Source: Clostridiaceae bacterium
GTDB lineage: Bacteria > Bacillota > Clostridia > DSM-8532
Assembly (NCBI GenBank): GCA_012520615.1
Contig: JAAYNX010000038.1
Location: forward strand, 1-41,240
Length of the DNA stretch: 41,240 bases
Direction of reading: 5' to 3'
The translations under genes and the position numbers were made by a program. Positions 35,543 through 41,137 of this stretch are shown here, piece after piece. Within the stretch, counting starts at the first letter, position 1. Each line of letters begins with the position of its first letter. Below the pieces are notes generated by a model. That model was not told the origin of the DNA. It made no database searches and saw only the letters and a list, made by a program, of their open reading frames with translations.

Positions 35543-35566
35543 TAATATACAATCAAATAGTGCATG

Positions 35567-35735
35567 ACGGTGCATGAAAATGCTCAATAGGGAACCGGGT
35601 GCAACCCCCGGACTGTCCCAGCAACCGTGAAGCTGACGAAACGGCTGATGCCACTGTAACAGGTTTTTGTTAAAATCTTTATGGGAAGGTGCCGCGTAGG
35701 ATGAAGCAAAGTCGGTAGACCTGCCGTGATGTTAT
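35567..35735 (+). promoter_or_regulatory. Cobalamin (B12) riboswitch
   Basis: Conserved parts in order: TGCATGAAAATGC, AATAGGGAACCGGGTG, the junction CCCGGACTGTCCCAGCAACC (here split by motif), GCCACTG at 35650-35656, and the B12 box AGTCGGTAGACCTGCC (35710-35725). It senses adenosyl- or other cobalamins and represses the downstream importer when B12 is plentiful. Boundaries are approximate. Confidence 0.93.
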
Positions 35736-35790
35736 GTTTCTTCTGGGGTTTAAGAGTAAAATTTTTGAATTATGCATCATCCGTACTTTT

Positions 35791-40036: not shown

Positions 40037-40069
40037 ATAAATAATGAAGTTAAGGAGGTGAAAAGCAGA

Positions 40070-40486
40070 ATGCCAACATTTAACCAGTTGGTCAGAAAGG
40101 GCAGAGAGAAAGTTTTGTACAAATCAAATTCTCCGGCTTTACAGACAAGTATGAATACTTTGAAGAAAAAAGCCACTATATTGAACTCTCCACAGAAGAG
40201 AGGCGTTTGTACAGTAGTTAAAACCGTTACTCCTAAAAAACCTAACTCAGCTCTTCGTAAGGTTGCGAGAGTGCGCCTGACAAACGGTATCGAAGTAACC
40301 GCATATATTCCTGGTATCGGACACAACCTACAGGAACACAGTGTTGTTCTTATTAGAGGTGGTCGTATAAAAGACTTGCCTGGCGTAAGATATCATATTG
40401 TACGCGGTACATTGGATACAGCAGGTGTTACTAACCGCAAACAGAGCCGCTCAAAGTATGGCGCAAAACGCGCTAAGAAAAAGTAG
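40070..40486 (+). CDS. rpsL: 30S ribosomal protein S12
   Basis: A 138-residue decoding-centre protein. It carries the short insertion near residues 23-40 typical of Gram-positive S12 (as in Bacillus, also 138), [11 protein letters not shown] with the Lys whose change gives streptomycin resistance in E. coli, and [25 protein letters not shown] (40052-40060) sets the ATG at 40070; an in-frame GTG at 40058 lies within that site. It is followed by rpsG after a structured 180-nt spacer. Confidence 0.98.
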
Positions 40487-40535
40487 AATCTTTGGTTAAG
40501 AGCTACTTTAAAAATTAATAATTTGCAGGACGAAT

Positions 40536-40552
40536 CAACGTGCCAGACGTTG
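40536..40552 (+). promoter_or_regulatory. Hairpin in the rpsL-rpsG spacer
   Basis: CAACGT-gccag-ACGTTG, perfect 6 bp, with a T7 run 10 nt later (40563-40569). Too far from the stem for a standard terminator, but it could cause partial attenuation. Confidence 0.4.
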
Positions 40553-40595
40553 TCAATATATATTTTTTTGATGCGTTTCGCACTGACGAGCCTTA

Positions 40596-40646
40596 GATAA
40601 CTAGGTTCGAGTACCTGTGATACCGGGTGATACACCCGTAGTTATC
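40596..40646 (+). promoter_or_regulatory. Predicted three-way-junction RNA before rpsG
   Basis: P1: GATAACTA (40596-40603) / TAGTTATC (40639-40646), perfect 8 bp. P2: GGT (40604-40606) / ACC (40613-40615). P3: CGGGTG (40624-40629) / CACCCG (40633-40638), perfect 6 bp and abutting P1. The rpsG ribosome site follows within 5 nt. In E. coli S7 binds this intergenic region to control its own synthesis; a similar role here is inference. Confidence 0.6.
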
Positions 40647-40666
40647 ATGCAAAGGAGGGAAGAAAA

Positions 40667-41137
40667 GTGCCAAGAAGAGGACACATTCCAAAAAGAGATG
40701 TTCTGCCGGATCCAATATACAATGATAAGACGGTTTCAAGACTTATTAACAGTATAATGTTGGACGGCAAAAAAGGTATTGCTCAGAAGATTTGTTATGA
40801 TGCCTTTGATATAATCAAGGAAAAGACTGGTAAGAATCCCCTTGAAGTATTTGAAGAAGCTATGAATAACATAATGCCTGTACTCGAGGTTAAAGCCAGA
40901 AGAGTCGGCGGAGCAACCTATCAGGTTCCTATGGAAGTTAGACCTGAAAGAAGGCAAACTCTTGGTTTGCGTTGGCTTACCAGCTATGCTAGGAAAAGAA
41001 GTGAACGCACCATGAAGGAAAGACTTGCCGCAGAAATTATGGACGCAACAAACAACTTGGGTGGAGCCGCTAAGAAAAAGGATGACACCCATAAGATGGC
41101 AGAGGCCAATAAGGCATTTGCACATTACAGGTGGTAA
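40667..41137 (+). CDS. rpsG: 30S ribosomal protein S7
   Basis: A 156-residue head-assembly protein of the small subunit. The start [17 protein letters not shown], the block [20 protein letters not shown] (about 85-104), and the C-terminal [20 protein letters not shown] are typical. The start is GTG at 40667 with AAAGGAGGG at 40651-40659. It is third in the str cluster, ahead of fusA by 50 nt. Confidence 0.98.

Follow-up and report, generated by a model that had tools for sequence, protein, structure and literature searches.

In the str operon of Escherichia coli, ribosomal protein uS7 acts in the spacer between rpsL and rpsG (PMC10931766). According to the same review, the structure of this uS7 site is not obviously conserved, and uS7 control of the operon has been studied in E. 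coli and cyanobacteria only. For the cyanobacterial rpsL-rpsG region, control by uS7 was proposed and a resemblance to the S7 site of 16S rRNA was described (Meng et al. 1989, as cited in PMC10931766). Among the 20 ribosomal leaders of Eckert and Weinberg 2020 (PMC7247131), which include the S4 leader of Clostridia, none is for S7 and none lies before rpsG. Thirty further ribosomal-leader candidates were reported elsewhere, one of which (rpsJ) is described in the main text (PMC11109978), and rpsG is not named in the main texts of a small set of structured-RNA discovery papers, whose supplements may list it.

We analyzed a stretch of 41,240 nucleotides of clostridial DNA (hereafter, the window), in which an open frame for rpsL (uS12; 40058-40486, + strand, listed from 40058) is followed by rpsG (uS7; 40667-41137, + strand). 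The spacer was confirmed by the rpsL end at 40486 and the rpsG GTG start at 40667, which is supported by the open frame and by relatives; the rpsG ribosome-binding site, AAAGGAGGG (40651-40659, + strand), is conserved in the window's family. This spacer carries a structured element that extends from about 40540 (perhaps 40525) to 40662. It shares the spacer and operon, and probably also the ligand and the translational level of control, with the E. coli S12-S7 repressor site. However, our model R1 matched nothing in the E. coli region, whose 96-nt spacer lacks the heptamer GAGUACC that marks the clostridial element. The cyanobacterial region, which has the same location and a proposed uS7 control, is set apart by its description as 16S-like, whereas no 16S similarity was detected here. 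The rpsL-leader attenuators (PMC2965389) and rpsL leader candidates are likewise control elements of the str operon; these attenuators, however, are located 5' of rpsL or fusA and close with a terminator, and the clostridial element follows rpsL and is terminator-free. In kind and in evidence it is similar to the leaders of PMC7247131. An Rfam 15 scan of the window gave no match in the spacer at gathering scores, a sensitive scan of the spacer yielded two matches only, both far below these scores, and a scan of 20 relatives yielded none. The suggestion, made in a preliminary description of this DNA, of a separate ribosomal leader class unlike that of E. coli is thus supported by a conserved, covarying RNA directly before rpsG across Clostridia with no match in Rfam or E. 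coli. The best reading is that the element represents a new ribosomal-leader class, which may already be listed in the supplement of PMC11109978.

Hairpin PA (40587-40609, + strand) is formed by CGAGCCU at 40587-40593 and AGGUUCG at 40603-40609 around a loop at 40594-40602, with pairing probabilities of 0.57-0.99. The first G of the invariant heptamer GAGUACC (40609-40615, + strand), identified from class-wide counts, closes this hairpin, and AGUACC follows at 40610-40615. Covariation was analyzed in 45 relatives in which the stem was delimited by a 5' anchor (GCRCUNAC) and a 3' anchor (AGUACC), both set by sequence alone, with no fitting of structure to the sequences. With statistics that ignore kinship, stem position 5 was paired in 45/45 relatives, as CG, AT, GC or TA (shuffled mean 24.0, maximum 33), and positions 2, 3 and 6 were also above all 2000 shuffles. 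RNAalifold found the outer pairs of PA, and those of a second hairpin, PB, unprompted in the window's family. In addition, the 45 nt preceding AGUACC had a mean z of -1.17 relative to shuffles, compared with -0.29 for a control stretch further upstream and -0.68 for the PB region. Two further candidates were rejected. An ACU/AGU pairing around PA, proposed by RNAalifold for the family, is not general because these letters differ in many relatives (for example, GCACAACGG), and the opposite strand does not fit a Loop-E (AGUA/GAA) motif when inspected by eye.

Upstream of PA, hairpin P0 (40540-40583, + strand) pairs GUGC at 40540-40543 with GCAC at 40580-40583 and contains a 3x3 internal loop and an AU-rich terminal loop (probabilities 0.59-1.0). 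Its inner helix (40547-40550 with 40573-40576, + strand) was supported by folding and by pair counts: in 66 relatives with the GUGC and GCRC anchors, 184/330 cells were paired, and shuffling gave 144 (sd 9). Offsets of 2x2 and 4x4 also scored, because both slide along the same helix, and most asymmetric offsets were near chance. P0 is therefore supported, less strongly than PA. An AU-rich, UUUAUAUAGAUU-like sequence in the P0 loop (40553-40569 in the window) recurs in many clostridial spacers; it is possible that it is a protein contact or cleavage site. Long GC-rich inserts, which apparently form further stems, were seen in the distal part of P0 in five family relatives (L094, L096, L100, L104 and L105).

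Hairpin PB (40617-40648, + strand) consists of an outer part, GUGAUAC at 40617-40623 with GUUAUCAU at 40641-40648 (U40642 bulged; probability 0.3-0.5), and an inner part, CGGGU at 40624-40628 with ACCCG at 40634-40638 (probability 0.93-1.0). The outer pairs are retained in 31-34 of the 34 family members and the inner pairs covary with double changes. By eye, PB varies a lot between lineages and is shorter outside the family, and the middle (GUGAUA) strand seems pairable either upstream or downstream in other lineages. A candidate closing helix, P_out (GCAGG at 40525-40529 with CCUGU at 40614-40618, + strand; probability 0.2-0.5), competes with the outer part of PB when the window's spacer is folded. 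As a general helix (ACAGG/CCUGU) P_out was rejected, being conserved only in the window's family and having no compensatory support outside it. Beyond the family, CCNN variants show no clear correspondence with complementary tetramers upstream, and the sole hint there was a slight enrichment of UAGG in the CCUA group (20/55 vs 13/67). Pairing of CCU with the SD was likewise unsupported, since its third letter varies (U, G or A) with no matching change in the SD. One locus, L027, has a spacer of 51 nt in which the PB-like end TGATATCTCAATTATTGTGAAGGAGGG is kept and PA and GAGUACC are missing, as a result of natural deletion or assembly error.

Regions upstream of rpsG were gathered from 80 named contigs, from relatives and from an even sample of the class. 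In the family alignment, the conserved fold was 93.9% paired, compared with 25-49% for slid versions, with double changes in 6 pairs and none of 500 shuffles scoring as high. A larger alignment of 92 sequences, which favours the structure by construction as these were aligned with the model, was 90.8% paired with double changes in 13/18 pairs. In the first set of loci, which includes near-duplicates, AGUACC occurred shortly before rpsG in 127/131; of its 128 matches in total, one (in L010) falls inside rpsL. When non-duplicate loci of the class were considered, 62/77 had AGUACC no more than 110 nt from rpsG (shuffled expectation, 1.7%), all 62 with a preceding G, and two more loci had a one-letter variant. 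About a fifth of the sampled class genomes retain rpsG and lack the element. AGUACC was absent from the 28 phylum loci outside class Clostridia, where spacers are mostly short, and the sole carrier among 29 phylum-level loci belongs to this class; except for that member, model R2 found nothing significant in these loci. Within the sampled phylum, the element is confined to class Clostridia.

Both models were also run at the genome level. R1 had one match in the window's own genome at E values up to 10. For R2, the best genome-wide match was located 3-5 nt before rpsG in 28/30 genomes unused for building it; these are class members, some closely related to sequences used in training, and the SD forms part of the model. 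One exception (L206, genome G321) was a weak match about 214 nt upstream of rpsG (E = 0.035), which is perhaps due to chance or to an element that an insertion has moved away from rpsG; in the G339 genome R2 had no match. Five phylum-level matches of R1 (E = 0.006-0.06) were away from rpsG and were rejected.

The element has two general features of ribosomal leaders, namely, a conserved covarying structure and a consistent place in a ribosomal-protein mRNA, before rpsG. No terminator-like site was found on the + strand of the spacer, which argues for translational control, and this observation, the position of the element at the SD and the uS7 precedent in E. coli together point to translational feedback by uS7. 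We infer, with a probability of roughly 0.65, that the element is a cis-acting ribosomal leader inside the operon that is most likely bound by uS7 and represses translation of rpsG. The RNA would fold into P0, PA with its GAGUACC strand, and PB, finishing at the SD. Free uS7 in excess over 16S rRNA would bind the P0/PA/GAGUACC region, and the bound RNA would block loading of the 30S subunit on the adjacent SD, with repression reaching rpsG and genes translated after it; access to the SD may be set in part by whether the GUGAUA strand pairs within PB or elsewhere. The absence of the element from about a fifth of the sampled class genomes, the lack of a model match to 16S rRNA and the dissimilar uS7 site of E. 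coli speak against this reading. The element is a defined, testable candidate for uS7 control in a whole bacterial class that includes gut and cellulose-degrading species, and if it does bind uS7, it would add another unrelated RNA to those enlisted for the control of this protein.

It is also possible, albeit tentatively, that a different ligand is recognized by the conserved leader, such as another ribosomal protein (for example, uS12, whose gene lies upstream), one of the operon's translation factors or a ribonuclease with a cleavage site in this part of the str mRNA. No 16S mimicry was detected, which would fit such a ligand: R2 gave no meaningful match in a clostridial 16S locus (a three-dimensional resemblance may exist), and a likeness of GAGUAC to GAAUAC of 16S rRNA, seen by eye, was rejected as too short to count and without a model match. 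The recurrent AU-rich, UAUAUAGAU-like loop in P0, which could be a cleavage site, would fit as well. However, the element sits directly before rpsG, and in E. coli the str operon is known to be regulated by uS7 (PMC10931766). A more doubtful reading is a class-wide, two-state leader for uS7 or another operon product, in which GAGUACC with P0 and PA would make up a protein site unlike that for uS7 in 16S rRNA, and switching of the GUGAUA strand between PB and other partners would make the rpsG start accessible or inaccessible.

A ligand-free element that constitutively supports translation or mRNA stability, for example by keeping the SD open or spacing the translation of rpsL and rpsG, would be in keeping with a structure that ends at the SD and with the high variability of PB between lineages, but a covarying hairpin flanked by an unpaired hexamer that does not vary is what one would sooner expect of a protein-binding site, making this explanation improbable. 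Conservation at the DNA level, as a promoter or protein site, in place of RNA, to which the recurrent AU-rich TATA-like stretches in the spacer might be attributed, can practically be dismissed in view of the compensatory changes in PA and the lack of a sigma-70-like site on the + strand.

The preliminary description had placed a compact three-way junction (P1, P2 and P3) at 40596-40646. A structured RNA is indeed present between rpsL and rpsG, but the conserved fold differs from this junction and is larger; the interval is in the right place and leaves out half of the element. The letters of the 8-bp helix P1 are as described (40596-40603 with 40639-40646, eight perfect pairs), P3 (CGGGUG/CACCCG, 40624-40638), adjoining it on the 3' side, is a genuine hairpin that makes up the inner part of PB, and the SD begins about 4-5 nt after the structure. 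As a fold, P1 was neither conserved nor predicted in context. It was paired in 47.1% of cells in the 34 family members, compared with 34-46% in slid controls, and its single pairs were kept in 6-22 of these sequences. In the full spacer (40518-40662), its pairing probability was 0.00, because its 5' strand lies for the most part in the loop of the well supported hairpin PA, and P1 plus P3 reached -12.4 kcal/mol, compared with -26.0 to -28.5 kcal/mol for the conserved folds. Covariation was thus lacking for P1 and present for the whole element, and P2 would take up the conserved GAGUACC strand. The 51 nt are stable when folded in isolation (-16 kcal/mol, z = -1.70), but this stability is not clearly above chance (14/200 shuffles were at least as stable), and comparison refutes the junction as the functional structure, leaving it next to no credence. 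Elsewhere in the window, the Rfam scan detected a Cobalamin riboswitch aptamer (RF00174) at 35551-35742 on the + strand, with 87.7 bits.
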